64,000 nt of DNA from Polaribacter sp. (GTDB lineage: Bacteria > Bacteroidota > Bacteroidia > Flavobacteriales > Flavobacteriaceae). The stretch is from assembly GCA_029250685.1 (NCBI GenBank), contig JAQXEU010000022.1:1-64000 (forward strand). Reading direction: 5' to 3'. The translations under genes were made by a program, and so were the position numbers. The notes below the pieces were generated by a model, which saw nothing but the letters and a program-made list of their open reading frames with translations, ran no database searches and was not told where the DNA came from. Numbering within the stretch: position 1 is the first letter of the stretch; each line of letters opens with the position of its first letter. Shown here piece by piece: positions 18,876-24,493 of the stretch.

Positions 18876-18926
18876 TTTTTTATTCTCGAAACAATTTTTT
18901 TATTCTCGATTGCGCTCGAACTGACA
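18876..18926 (-). repeat. Interspersed palindromic repeat copy downstream of leuS
   Basis: On the minus strand the core reads TTCGAGCGCAATCGAGAA, preceded by GTCAG. It differs at one base from the core inside leuS at 21061-21084. Just beyond it lies a short direct repeat of TTTATTCTCGA (about 18878-18889 and 18899-18909). From general knowledge this is a recurrent flavobacterial interspersed motif. Confidence 0.6.
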
Positions 18927-18972: not shown

Positions 18973-21900
18973 CTAGCCAACGATGTTTATAATTTTACCC
19001 GGAACAATAATCACTTTCTTAGGTGTTCTTCCTTGTAACTGAGCTTGCGTTTTTTCGTGAGCCATCACTGTTTCTTCGATTTCATCTTTTGATAAATCTA
19101 ACGATAAATCCATCGTAAAGCGCATTTTGCCGTTGAATGAAACTGGATATGTTTTAGAACTTTCTACCAAATGACTTGCCTCAAACACAGGGAAATCTGC
19201 AGTAGAAATTGAATCTTTATTTCCTAATAAACTCCACAATTCTTCTGCAATATGCGGTGCATAAGGTGAAACCAATATCGCCAAGGGTTCTAAAATTGCA
19301 CGCTTGTTACATTTCAACGCTGTTAATTCATTTACAGCAATCATAAACGTAGAAACGGATGTATTGAAAGAGAAACTCTCAATATCTTCTTCTACTTTTT
19401 TAATGGTTTTATGCAATACTTTTAATTCGTCAGCTGTTGGTTTTTCTTTCGAAACTTCAAATGTGTCCTCGTTGTGATACAACTTCCATAATTTTTTCAA
19501 GAATGATGAAACTCCAGAAATACCTGAGGTTTTCCAAGGCTTAGCTTGTTCTAAAGGCCCTAAAAACATTTCAAACAATCGTAAACTGTCTGCTCCGTAT
19601 TCTTCACAAATAGCATCTGGATTTACAACATTGTATTTCGATTTCGACATTTTCTCAACCTCGCGGGAAACTTTGAATGTATCATCACTTTCCGTGATGA
19701 ATATTGCCTTTTTATATTCAACATTCAATGAATCATTTCTAAATTCTTGAACATCTAATTCATCAGACGAATTCACAAACATTACATTAACATGCTTCTT
19801 TAAAAGTTCAACAGAAACTATTAAACCATCTTTTAATTTTAATAACTCAGCATATTTATCTTGTCCCTTTTCAAGTTTAGCTTTAGATTTTTTTAATAAC
19901 GCTAAAATTTCTTTTTGGGTTAATTCTTTTTTATCTGAAACAACTATTGGAGTCTTAATTCTCCAAAATCCACTCTCATTTTCGGTTTTGTATGCAAACC
20001 CATTTATTACATTTACAAAAGCACTCGTTCCCAAAATCATTCCTTGGTTGATGAGTTTTTTTGCAAACTCATCTACAGGCACAATTCCTTTATCAAATAA
20101 GAATTTTTGCCAAAAACGTGCGTACAATAAATGTCCGGTTGCATGTTCAGAGCCACCAATATATAAATCTACCTCTTTCCAATACTCTAGATTTTCTTTC
20201 GAAGCAATTTCATTTTCGTTGTGCGGGTCCATATAACGATTAAAGTAATATGAACTTCCTGCCCAACCTGGCATAGTGTTTAATTCTAACGGATACACCG
20301 TTTTGTTTTTCAACTTTTCATTGCTAACAACTTTCTTTCCGCGAGAATCCCAAGCCCATTCTGTTGCGTTTCCTAAAGGCGGTTTTCCATCTTCAGTTGG
20401 CAAGTATTTTTCAACTTCTGGCAATACAATTGGCAAGTGTTTCTCGTCAATCATTTGCGGCATTCCGTCTTTATAATAAACCGGAAAAGGCTCTCCCCAA
20501 TAACGTTGTCTGCTAAAAACAGCATCACGCAAACGGTAGTTTATTTTACCATAACCAGCGCCTTTTTTCTCTAATTCGAAAATGGCTAATTTTAATGCTT
20601 TCTTATATTTTAATCCTGATAAAAAATCAGAATTTGCAATTTTTGTTCCGTCTTTATCTGCATGCGCAGCTTCAGAAATATCTACATTTTCGAAAATATT
20701 CGGAATATCAATATCAAAGTGTTTAGCGAAATCATAATCACGTTGATCTCCACAAGGAACCGCCATAACTGCTCCTGTTCCATAGTTTGCCAACACGTAA
20801 TCTCCAATCCAAATCGGAATTTGTTTTCCAGAAAAAGGATGCAAAGCATATGCACCAGTAAATGCACCAGAAATGGTTTTTACATCTGCCATTCTATCAC
20901 GTTCAGAACGTTTTGAAGTTGCAGAAATATATGCTTCAACTGCTGCTTTTTGAGCGTCCGTTGTAATTTTAGAAACTAACTCATGTTCTGGAGCTAAGGT
21001 CATAAATGAAACTCCGAAAATTGTATCTGGTCGTGTTGTAAATACATCTATTTTAAAAGACTTCTCGACTGCGCTCGAAGTGATCTTCTTTTTACTTTCA
21101 GTTTTTTGAACTTTAGGAAATTGAATTGCAAAATTAATTTCAGAAACAACTTTTACAACATTTTGAATTACTTCTTCATTTGTAAAACGAATTACATTAA
21201 AGCCTTCATTGTTGAAAAATGCTGTTCTTACTGCTTCATCTTCTTTACCAGAAAATTCAACAATTAAATTTTTTGCTAAACACACATAATCCACTAAAAA
21301 TGTACCAACAGTATATTTCTTTCTGAATTTTGATGCCCCTTTTTTATTTTTAATTTCATTCCAAAGCGTTGTTTCTGCTTTCGATAAATTTTGACGTAAT
21401 TCTTTTAAAGCTTCTAATTCTTTGTATGATAATTTTACTTCTGAAGTTGTGTTTTCTAAATCTCCAGCCACATCAAAAGAAACCATTGCTCCAACCGATT
21501 TTCCAATCCAGTTTGTTTGAGAATCTTTTAAAGGTTGTGGCCAATCAATTGTTTCCAATCCGTCTAACAAACGTTGTGCATACGCAGAAATTCGCATTGA
21601 CCATTGTGTCATTTTTTTTCTAACAACTGGATGACCTCCTCGTTCTGAAACTCCGTTTACAATTTCGTCATTTGCTAAAACGGTTCCTAATGCTGGACAC
21701 CAATTTACTTCTGTATCTGACAAAAATGTCAATCTATATTGTAATAAAACTGCTTCTTGTTCAGCTTTTGAAAAAGCTTTCCATTCTTCCGCAGAAAACG
21801 ATTTTATTTCATCCTCACAAACAGCATTTACGGTTGTATTTCCTTCTTTTTTAAAGATTTTTTCTAACACAGAAATATCTTCTGCTTTGTCAGCATCTTT

Positions 21901-22344
21901 GTTGTACCAAGAATTGAACAGTTGGATAAAAATCCATTGTGTCCATTTATAATATTCTGGATTTGAAGTTCTCACTTCTCTACTCCAGTCAAAAGAAAAA
22001 CCAACGCGATCTAATTGTCTTCTATAGGTTTTTATGTTTTCTTCAGTAGTTTTTGCAGGATGTTGTCCTGTCTGAATTGCATATTGTTCTGCTGGCAAAC
22101 CAAAAGAATCATATCCTTGCGGATGCAACACATTAAAGCCTTTATGACGTTTGTAACGCGCATAAATATCTGATGCAATATATCCTAACGGATGCCCAAC
22201 GTGTAAACCTGCTCCGCTTGGATATGGAAACATATCTAACACATAATATTTAGGCTTTTCAGAAGTATTACTGGCTTTAAAAGTTTGGTTTTCTTCCCAA
22301 TATTTTTGCCATTTTTTTTCTATCTCAATATGATTGTATTGCAT
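18973..22344 (-). CDS. leuS: Leucyl-tRNA synthetase with DUF559-like insertion
   Basis: This 1123-residue class I synthetase charges tRNA-Leu. The HIGH motif (GLHVGHPLGY) is at about residues 46-55 and KMSKS at 898-902 (EKMSKSKYNVV). The CP1 editing domain begins with IDVFTTRPDTIFG at about 431. Residues 296-428 are not synthetase sequence. They resemble the DUF559 PD-(D/E)XK nuclease-like domain (ELRQNLSKAETTLWNEIKNK, KFRKKYTVGTFLVDYVC, NLIVEFSG, FNVIRFTNEEVIQN), placed exactly at the entry to the editing domain. A second expansion of about 70 residues (784-856) lies before KMSKS. Without the DUF559 part, length would be about 990. The reading frame stays open throughout, so the enzyme is probably functional. 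Confidence 0.96.
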   Translation of the reverse strand: MQYNHIEIEKKWQKYWEENQTFKASNTSEKPKYYVLDMFPYPSGAGLHVGHPLGYIASDIYARYKRHKGFNVLHPQGYDSFGLPAEQYAIQTGQHPAKTTEENIKTYRRQLDRVGFSFDWSREVRTSNPEYYKWTQWIFIQLFNSWYNKDADKAEDISVLEKIFKKEGNTTVNAVCEDEIKSFSAEEWKAFSKAEQEAVLLQYRLTFLSDTEVNWCPALGTVLANDEIVNGVSERGGHPVVRKKMTQWSMRISAYAQRLLDGLETIDWPQPLKDSQTNWIGKSVGAMVSFDVAGDLENTTSEVKLSYKELEALKELRQNLSKAETTLWNEIKNKKGASKFRKKYTVGTFLVDYVCLAKNLIVEFSGKEDEAVRTAFFNNEGFNVIRFTNEEVIQNVVKVVSEINFAIQFPKVQKTESKKKITSSAVEKSFKIDVFTTRPDTIFGVSFMTLAPEHELVSKITTDAQKAAVEAYISATSKRSERDRMADVKTISGAFTGAYALHPFSGKQIPIWIGDYVLANYGTGAVMAVPCGDQRDYDFAKHFDIDIPNIFENVDISEAAHADKDGTKIANSDFLSGLKYKKALKLAIFELEKKGAGYGKINYRLRDAVFSRQRYWGEPFPVYYKDGMPQMIDEKHLPIVLPEVEKYLPTEDGKPPLGNATEWAWDSRGKKVVSNEKLKNKTVYPLELNTMPGWAGSSYYFNRYMDPHNENEIASKENLEYWKEVDLYIGGSEHATGHLLYARFWQKFLFDKGIVPVDEFAKKLINQGMILGTSAFVNVINGFAYKTENESGFWRIKTPIVVSDKKELTQKEILALLKKSKAKLEKGQDKYAELLKLKDGLIVSVELLKKHVNVMFVNSSDELDVQEFRNDSLNVEYKKAIFITESDDTFKVSREVEKMSKSKYNVVNPDAICEEYGADSLRLFEMFLGPLEQAKPWKTSGISGVSSFLKKLWKLYHNEDTFEVSKEKPTADELKVLHKTIKKVEEDIESFSFNTSVSTFMIAVNELTALKCNKRAILEPLAILVSPYAPHIAEELWSLLGNKDSISTADFPVFEASHLVESSKTYPVSFNGKMRFTMDLSLDLSKDEIEETVMAHEKTQAQLQGRTPKKVIIVPGKIINIVG
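21061..21084 (-). repeat. Interspersed palindromic repeat inside leuS
   Basis: On the minus strand the core TTCGAGCGCAGTCGAGAAG is read in frame as SSAVEK at the 3' end of the DUF559 insertion. It matches the intergenic copy at 18902-18925. Its position at the insertion edge suggests it came in with the insertion. Confidence 0.6.
21061..21459 (-). mobile_element. Probable DUF559 nuclease-like insertion within leuS
   Basis: This 399-base in-frame segment encodes leuS residues 296-428. The domain has the DUF559 order: a helix with NLSKAETTLW, then KFRKKYTVGTFLVDYVC, then LIVEFSG, then a C-terminal VIRFTNEEVIQN. The usual IELDG..H stretch reads VEFSGKED, so nuclease activity may be lost. The 3' edge is an interspersed repeat; no copy is seen at the 5' edge. 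Treating it as a mobile insertion is inference. Confidence 0.6.
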
Positions 22345-23427: not shown

Positions 23428-23952
23428 TTATTTTACAGCAACTGTAACCACTGTGTTAGCCCATCCAATATGCATGTCTCCAGATTTAGAAAATGTAATT
23501 GCTAATGCTTCTACAAAACTAGAACCTTTAGATACTTTTCCTGCTACCCTTACTACATCATTTGCTTGCTTGTAGCTTCCGCTACCCCAAGTGTGCAGCT
23601 TATTACTTAAAATAATTGTCCATTCAGAGCTTCCTGGAATTGCAAAAACCGTATACGTTCCTGCTTTTACAGATTTACCTCCAAACATTACATTTTTATA
23701 AAATCTAACCTCTGTAGATTCGTTTGCGCCAAGTCTCCAAACCTTTCCAGCTGGAGCTAATTTCGCCATGCTTCTCCCTTTCAATTGAGGTCTACTATAA
23801 ACAACTTTTGCAACTGCTCCATCAGCTTTGTTGCTATACATAGCAACATCTAAAGGGCTTTTATCTAACTTAGGGAATTTTTGTGCAGTTGTTTCATTTG
23901 AGAACAATACTGCCATTACGAACAATGCGATTACTAATACATTTTTTTTCAT
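23428..23952 (-). CDS. DUF2911 domain secreted protein (copy 2)
   Basis: This 174-residue protein has a signal peptide (MKKNVLVIALFVMAVLFSN, cleavage after TTA near residue 23). The DUF2911 body includes VVYSRPQLKGRSMAKLAPAG, KVWRLGANESTEVRFYKN and VKAGTYTVFAIPG. The family function is unknown; members are periplasmic or outer-membrane-associated in Bacteroidetes. It starts 10 bases downstream of a close paralogue, with near-identical signal peptides, so the pair is a tandem duplication and probably one transcript. Confidence 0.9.
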   Translation of the reverse strand: MKKNVLVIALFVMAVLFSNETTAQKFPKLDKSPLDVAMYSNKADGAVAKVVYSRPQLKGRSMAKLAPAGKVWRLGANESTEVRFYKNVMFGGKSVKAGTYTVFAIPGSSEWTIILSNKLHTWGSGSYKQANDVVRVAGKVSKGSSFVEALAITFSKSGDMHIGWANTVVTVAVK

Positions 23953-23962
23953 CTTATTATAT

Positions 23963-24493
23963 TTATTTAATTGAAACTTTAACTATTGTATTTCCCCATC
24001 CCATGAATAAATTCATGTCTTTATCAAATGTCATAGAAAACGCATTAATGTTAGCCATGCTAGACATTAATTCTCCTTTAACTCTTACAACATCTTCTTC
24101 TTGTTTATAAAAATAAGAACCCCAAACATTTTTTGCAGTACTTAAAATAACTGTCCAGTTTCCTTCGTTTGGAATTGCAAATAATGAATAACTTCCAGCT
24201 TTCACTTTTTTACCACCAAATATCACATCTTTATAAAAAGTAATTTCTGCAGCTTCGTTTGCGCCTAGCCTCCAAACTTTTCCAGCCGGAGCTAATTTCG
24301 CCATGCTTCTTCCATTTAACTGTGGTCTGCTGTAAACAACTTTTACAATTTTGTCTGAAATTTTATAGTTTGATGGAAAAGACGCAGCATCCATCGGGCT
24401 TTTATCTAATCCTTCAAATTTTTGTGCAGTCGTTTCGTTTGAAAATAATACTGCCATCGCAAAAAGAGCGATTACTAAAACATTTTTCTTCAT
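23963..24493 (-). CDS. DUF2911 domain secreted protein (copy 1)
   Basis: This 176-residue protein is the upstream member of the DUF2911 tandem pair. Its signal peptide (MKKNVLVIALFAMAVLFSN) differs by one residue from that of the next gene. The core motif KVVYSRPQLNGRSMAKLAPA and the stretch KVWRLGANEAAEITFYKD are shared, while the C-terminal halves have diverged (WGSYFYKQEEDVVRVKGEL against WGSGSYKQANDVVRVAGKV). No catalytic residues can be assigned. Confidence 0.9.
   Translation of the reverse strand: MKKNVLVIALFAMAVLFSNETTAQKFEGLDKSPMDAASFPSNYKISDKIVKVVYSRPQLNGRSMAKLAPAGKVWRLGANEAAEITFYKDVIFGGKKVKAGSYSLFAIPNEGNWTVILSTAKNVWGSYFYKQEEDVVRVKGELMSSMANINAFSMTFDKDMNLFMGWGNTIVKVSIK

Follow-up and report, generated by a model that had tools for sequence, protein, structure and literature searches.

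A degenerate DUF559 domain within a Polaribacter leucyl-tRNA synthetase: a likely remnant of a hairpin-ended mobile element

Closest described systems and the leuS locus

Palindromic repeats that lie in frame within unrelated protein-coding genes, and are translated along with them, have been described as Rickettsia palindromic elements (RPEs; PMC10969869; PMC3733652), and a hidden HNH nuclease insertion of the ShiLan type reads through in the host frame of a phage methylase, with no known intein or intron (PMC11855218). Among the papers found, these are the nearest published relatives of the element considered here, a DUF559 domain inserted within leuS, the leucyl-tRNA synthetase (LeuRS) gene of a Polaribacter sp.; leuS lies in a 64,000-nucleotide stretch of contig JAQXEU010000022.1 which, at its full length, we call the window. 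The element resembles RPEs in being an in-frame palindromic insertion into unrelated genes that is likely translated with them (PMC10969869), but an RPE is about 150 bp and gives a short peptide, whereas the DUF559 element encodes a nuclease of about 108 amino acids, with conserved catalytic residues, between two hairpin ends. With the ShiLan element it shares host-frame read-through of an insertion with a nuclease and no known intein or intron, but the HNH gene of that element lies in another frame with its own start and stop, while the DUF559 element is in the host frame, is DUF559/Vsr-like and occurs in many cellular enzymes. Stand-alone DUF559/Vsr-like nucleases, such as Caulobacter VsrA (PMC12907096), belong to the same Pfam family and fold, but 19 of 20 sampled stand-alone Flavobacteriaceae copies group apart from the embedded copies in a tree of the domains, and L111 falls with the embedded clade. 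Unlike I-Bth0305I and mobile inteins, embedded DUF559 has no splicing domain that was found and apparently stays in the enzyme, and its homing is what we infer. In REP/RAYT systems (repetitive extragenic palindromes and their associated tyrosine transposases) small dispersed hairpin repeats are tied to a nuclease-type gene, as here, but the present element has DUF559 rather than a Y1 transposase and its insertions are in frame inside genes. No account of embedded DUF559 was found in the open-licence PubMed Central literature, as represented mostly by titles and the beginnings of abstracts.

The window leuS (18973..22344, minus strand) is an uninterrupted frame of 1123 amino acids which matches TIGR00396 with 876 bits. 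The first-pass annotation read residues 296-428 (21061..21459, minus strand), at the start of the CP1 editing domain, as an in-frame insertion, and this is borne out by alignment to the Thermus LeuRS (1h3n), which runs to query residue 294 and resumes at 428 while target residues 238 and 239 are consecutive; because the Thermus enzyme loses no residues across this gap, the block is a clean extra segment. Its core is DUF559 (PF04480), placed at 21124..21411 (minus strand) by the family search of the window's genome and matched by Pfam at residues 312-407 (73.7 bits, cut-off 20.6, E 1.3e-20), so that the significant similarity on which the annotation had made its insertion idea depend is present. 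In a Pfam scan (five families at E<=0.01) DUF559 sits between the LeuRS domains, and the insert was found to have a predicted PD-(D/E)XK/Vsr-like fold. The structure search used a model of the insert only, the full-length LeuRS model being left aside for placement (mean predicted local distance difference test score 67, predicted template-modelling score 0.43), and families absent from the VIA-align list were not treated as excluded. LeuRS was matched once in the window's genome (2.22 Mb in 61 contigs, assembly 95.8% complete), and therefore the window leuS is presumably the working gene.

Of the six conserved DUF559 residues (E..H..D..E-x-D-G-x-x-H) the window copy retains E, D and E, while H is replaced by Y, D by S and the last H is deleted; the motif VEFSGKED, correctly read by the annotation, stands in place of E-x-D-G-x-x-H at 21238..21261 (minus strand), its second D substituted and its H deleted in the alignment. 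With D and H lost while E, D and E stay, this copy is a member of DUF559 that is probably inactive, as had been suspected. We favour, with moderate confidence, the reading that the block is a DUF559 (Vsr-like) domain with a degenerate site and likely the fossil of a hairpin-ended mobile element, intact copies of which are predicted to spread, likely unspliced, by nuclease-driven homing-like copying. This is likely because the same domain, mostly intact and often flanked by hairpins, occurs in LeuRS and about 18 other kinds of protein. The annotation overlooked this recurrence: the element is phylum-wide, with its catalytic residues intact elsewhere.

Hosts, catalytic residues and ends of embedded DUF559

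A search of 397 Flavobacteriaceae genomes with the insert gave matches in 155 (matches not all listed; a single-sequence query may miss diverged copies), the 30 best of which, window included, lie in stop-free frames of 845-1251 amino acids, and a phylum-wide sample gave matches in 147 of 345 genomes at E <= 1e-12, embedded and stand-alone together. Among the best 80 of 580 related stretches from named genomes, ranging from Maribacter, Winogradskyella and Flavobacterium to Pedobacter, Prevotella and a Porphyromonas bin, 67 are in frames of more than 220 amino acids; a Pfam scan of 19 of these found a host family in all 19, and visual inspection assigned the remainder wherever flanking motifs allowed it. 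A protein search (candidates of 637-2028 amino acids) matched 1069 proteins, the best 120 of which were examined, as were the best 120 of 7999 and of 8000 matches in the other protein searches. By Pfam the hosts are about 19 kinds of Bacteroidota protein, most of them mutually unrelated. DUF559 is internal or between two domains in four aminoacyl-tRNA synthetases (LeuRS, ValRS, MetRS and, by domain make-up, IleRS), MetH, RecG, UvrA, an aldehyde dehydrogenase-MaoC protein, adenine deaminase, CinA, a DegT-type aminotransferase, a methylmalonyl-CoA mutase fusion, urocanase, an Lhr-type helicase and an epimerase-type protein; it is near one end in HisD, HemD, IspF/YgbB and an amino-acid kinase. 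In LeuRS, IleRS and ValRS it lies just before TTRPDT, TTTPWTLPS and TTRPET respectively, a CP1 position which is apparently equivalent across the three paralogues. Some enzymes hold two or three copies, as does a MetH of 1702 amino acids with three. One MetH with the element (L191) is in a record labelled Candidatus Nitrotoga, outside the Bacteroidota, but it resembles Flavobacterium MetH and so the bin is probably contaminated. The window's genome holds a weak second DUF559-like frame of 182 amino acids (L088; G000 contig 21, 820-1128; 28.5 bits), not of the embedded type.

We call the degenerate form found in the window type B and the canonical insert, which in LeuRS has Pro/Gly-rich ends, type A. 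All six conserved residues are present in 118 of 123 embedded domains outside type B (L084, another degenerate copy, is one of the five failures), and each is 98-100% conserved over 209 domains. Type B has Y for H, mostly S for D and no last H, retains D and E, and its motif reads VEFSGKEDE or nearly so. Of the 123 domains 111 have an in-frame start codon nearby, 71 with ATG, a count without a chance control, and internal translation of the domains is possible. Duplicates (L001, L089-L093, L095-L097) and a split gene (L085) were dropped from trees and counts; since L041/L240 and L045/L254 are the same sequences, this set of 123 and that of 122 used below hold at least two repeats.

Short GC-rich hairpins border the embedded domains on both sides, with in-frame translations such as APQPPKGE..APPSGAGGA and SPTLSEGKG..SLSSGKG. 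Two inserts about 300 codons apart in one MetH gene (G215) have identical outer termini and nearly identical ends, AGCCCCCC(AA or CG)CCCCCAAAGGGGGAGC and GCT(C/T)CCCCTTTGGGGGCGGGGGGGGCT, and the strict form of these ends recurs in 30 of 122 elements, in MetH, LeuRS, ValRS, IleRS and MetRS. An inverted-repeat score of at least 22 was reached by 63 of the 122 elements (a set which includes five type-B rows, copies too near a gene end for 150/200-base flanks being dropped), compared to 6 of 363 controls from the same genes and 72 of 366 in which the ends were exchanged between loci. Terminal inverted repeats, as in DDE-type insertion sequences and transposons, are present in the embedded set and not in the window copy. 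Three translated end sequences have no stop in any of six frames, and the canonical copies, with their in-frame hairpin ends, are in-frame palindromic elements in the sense of RPEs, translation being read from the open frame. One hairpin pattern, absent from the control, was found 30 times across 8 of 11 genomes; 23 of these sites, spread over 6 genomes, lie outside the LeuRS insert, and some sites form pairs in inverted orientation with a spacing of about 100 bp. Stand-alone DUF559 genes of Flavobacteriaceae (L098-L117) also often lie between hairpin repeats such as TCCTCCCTTTTAAAAAGGGAGG, and 14 of 20 such loci score at least 22 between wider 250-bp flanks, without a matched control; the repeat association may therefore belong to the wider DUF559 family.

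A 22-bp imperfect palindrome at 21062..21083 (minus strand), read in frame as SSAVEK, had been taken both for an interspersed repeat at the 3' edge of the block and for the flank of the inserted gene. The repeat is real: the 2.22-Mb genome contains 25 sites that match its 16-bp core with no more than 2 mismatches, compared to none for a reversed-pattern control, and a second window copy (18903..18924, plus strand; 91% identity) lies downstream of leuS. As the end of the element it was rejected, being recognisable in only 17 of the 106 rows matched as type B, window included, with the canonical hairpin ends quite different.

Occupied and empty sites in LeuRS and MetH

In a survey of the genus LeuRS was matched in 56 of 58 genomes, with frames of 910-1182 amino acids besides a few cut pieces. 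At the insertion site the 30 best same-genus loci comprise 21 of type B, 2 of type A, 1 with another in-frame repeat (VIASETKQS..TPRNDE) and 6 that are short or empty, with 14 or 20 residues. The annotation's view that the site of this essential enzyme tolerates insertion is upheld by these empty alleles, and its concern that all related LeuRS might carry the segment does not apply, for the best 120 of 7999 matches in a collection of 5.8 billion proteins all have the domain (type A in 9; type B in 106 matched by pattern and in 5 recognised by eye, one truncated; named sources mostly Polaribacter, some Tenacibaculum), but the six same-genus loci do not. In a host tree with the insert left out, the canonical G131 is sister of the type-B G426 (support 93), in a starred clade that includes the window, and the empty G431 falls among type-B hosts (98*); the site states require 6 changes against a minimum possible of 3. 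A single insertion into LeuRS followed by plain descent is not supported, the A, B, other-repeat and empty states being intermixed on this tree.

LeuRS was found in 108 of 110 Flavobacteriaceae genomes that represent one genus each (matches in G015 and G058 were weak only) and carries DUF559 in at least five (G000, G002, G023, G036 and G050). Twenty further long LeuRS frames read at the site have DUF559 in none and VIASETKQS or VIASEAKQS in frame in three. Other in-frame repeats without a nuclease (VIASETKQS, VIPSEAKES..GHAELVEAP) occupy the CP1 loop in L133 (G411), L262, L264, L271 and L279, and because of these the loop looks like a hotspot for several repeat families. In G112 (contig 53; L085) LeuRS with DUF559 is split over two frames that overlap, which may reflect a broken copy or a mistake in the assembly. 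LeuRS totals near 1071 and 1119 amino acids are recurrent among relatives; a second length-variable stretch (19810-20013, residues about 778-845), where the consensus is lost in a 45-sequence alignment, has no DUF559 match.

Of 120 close MetH relatives, 22 carry the insert at site 1. This distribution takes 17 changes on the host tree, of which well supported branches force at least 12. Shuffled labels gave a mean of 20.5 changes, with 8 of 500 shuffles as low as observed; presence of the insert is thus highly scattered, though slightly short of random. Within one genus G396 is occupied and G018 is not; at site 2 G379 is occupied, and its same-genus relatives G222 and G465 are not, having repeat-like residues STPSGEMSEGQRR and ECHPERIRG. 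The MetH P0307 bears what looks like a scar of both ends without the domain. Site 2, between NDDDI and TLRQQ, has varied repeat-like in-frame footprints in P0241-P0336, which lack DUF559 (SPPSGEVPEGQR, CHPERSRGLSGNE, ALRLRSG..SLSGAEA). A fixed insertion site, patchy presence and empty alleles, as in homing endonuclease elements, were found together in the LeuRS genus survey and at MetH site 1.

In the domain tree (199 of 238 rows, those more than 90% identical within a label being dropped; 108 columns) most copies cluster with others from the same host gene. MetH2 copies, however, branch off several times from among the MetH1 copies, and in each of L067, P0002 and P0024 the two copies are sisters with moderate support (86, 87 and 91, none starred). 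Elsewhere in the window, 23428-23952 and 23963-24493 are adjacent similar genes with a nearly identical signal peptide (MKKNVLVIALF), apparently a tandem duplication.

Alternative explanations and a possible mechanism

The median ratio of nonsynonymous to synonymous substitution (dN/dS) of canonical domains is 0.089, compared to 0.069 for their hosts (8 pairs used, from 76 of 1126 same-class pairs that passed a 4-mer overlap filter, type-B rows and L084 excluded), and that of type B is 0.24 compared to 0.12 (207 of 210 pairs). With six intact residues and low dN/dS, canonical copies are likely active nucleases under selection; type B, rejected as a decaying pseudogene on its dN/dS of 0.24, is probably an inactive remnant under purifying selection, given its lost H, D and last H. 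Domains nearly as slow as their hosts, catalytic residues intact in most copies and continued constraint on type B would also suit domestication, in which the nuclease was fused to housekeeping enzymes for a host benefit (regulation, repair or defence) and is kept by host selection. We consider this unlikely, as the roughly 19 host kinds share no common pathway, presence among MetH relatives is very patchy, single enzymes hold two or three copies and hairpin ends are present.

That hairpins insert in frame by other machinery, as RPEs are described as doing (PMC10969869), with the DUF559 reading frame as their passenger, would agree with the nuclease-free in-frame repeats in the same LeuRS and MetH loops (for example VIASETKQS and CHPERSRG), but is improbable, since a passenger is not expected to retain six catalytic residues and a dN/dS near 0.09. 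An intein-like element spliced out of the protein would agree with the in-frame position in conserved enzymes, adjoining conserved motifs, and with the nuclease partner, as is usual for mobile inteins; it is very improbable here, as Pfam finds no splicing (Hint) domain in LeuRS, whose insert the annotation had called inteinless, or in the other hosts scanned, the window insert has 37 amino acids outside the DUF559 match, which is too short for a splicing domain, and the ends, inspected visually, look like Pro/Gly-rich linkers that lack conserved Cys/Ser or His-Asn. An assembly chimera or pseudogene, which a 61-contig assembly might suggest, is refuted for practical purposes by the domain's presence in all 120 nearest LeuRS from many sources, by purifying selection and by no second LeuRS being found in the genome.

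Several points count against a mobile, homing-like element. Hairpin ends are no longer visible at the window copy, and a search of its genome with a single hairpin pattern gave 0 sites. Visual inspection of 30 flanks, without near-identical empty DNA for comparison, showed no apparent target-site duplication. At the score threshold used, an inverted repeat is missing from about half of the elements, and since swapped ends also reach this threshold, a shared end family accounts for part of the signal. Occupied MetH genes cluster somewhat more than chance would give, and of the 196 inner branches obtained from the short domain alignment 92 are open. The identities of MetH1 domains correlate with those of their hosts (r 0.76; in 165 of 900 pairs the similarity of the domain equals or exceeds that of the host), so much inheritance is vertical or slow. 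Some of the patchiness could come from ordinary homologous recombination between alleles, strong purifying selection would also suit a useful domain, and nuclease activity, cut site and transfer are themselves predictions from sequence.

Under the homing-like reading that we prefer, a hairpin-ended, nuclease-coding element would invade genes in frame and be translated with the host enzyme. The intact nuclease would cut DNA at empty or repeat-bearing sites, solo hairpins perhaps serving as landing pads, and break repair would copy the element from an occupied to an empty or hairpin-bearing site. Insertions would persist only where frame and fold survive; occupied sites would be surface loops next to conserved motifs, since insertions at other places would inactivate the host gene. 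The window copy would represent a late stage, with the nuclease lost, the ends eroded and the domain kept; such a remnant would be removable only by exact in-frame deletion or allele replacement, and therefore likely persists as a structural part of LeuRS. The wider proposal, which we put forward tentatively and with some doubt, is of a phylum-wide Bacteroidota mobile element without splicing: a stop-less, hairpin-ended nuclease gene that would insert in frame into essential genes, become a surface domain, be expressed by its host as an active nuclease, home into empty alleles or hairpin loops and stay as a permanent domain once inactive.

Embedded DUF559 explains the extra length of many Bacteroidota enzymes and odd database names, such as that of P0005, which has MetH domains yet is called "DUF559 domain-containing protein", and it provides a natural set of domain insertions in LeuRS, IleRS, ValRS, MetRS, MetH, RecG and UvrA. 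If the proposal is true, essential proteins can be colonised by selfish nucleases that need neither inteins nor introns and are simply tolerated as extra domains.
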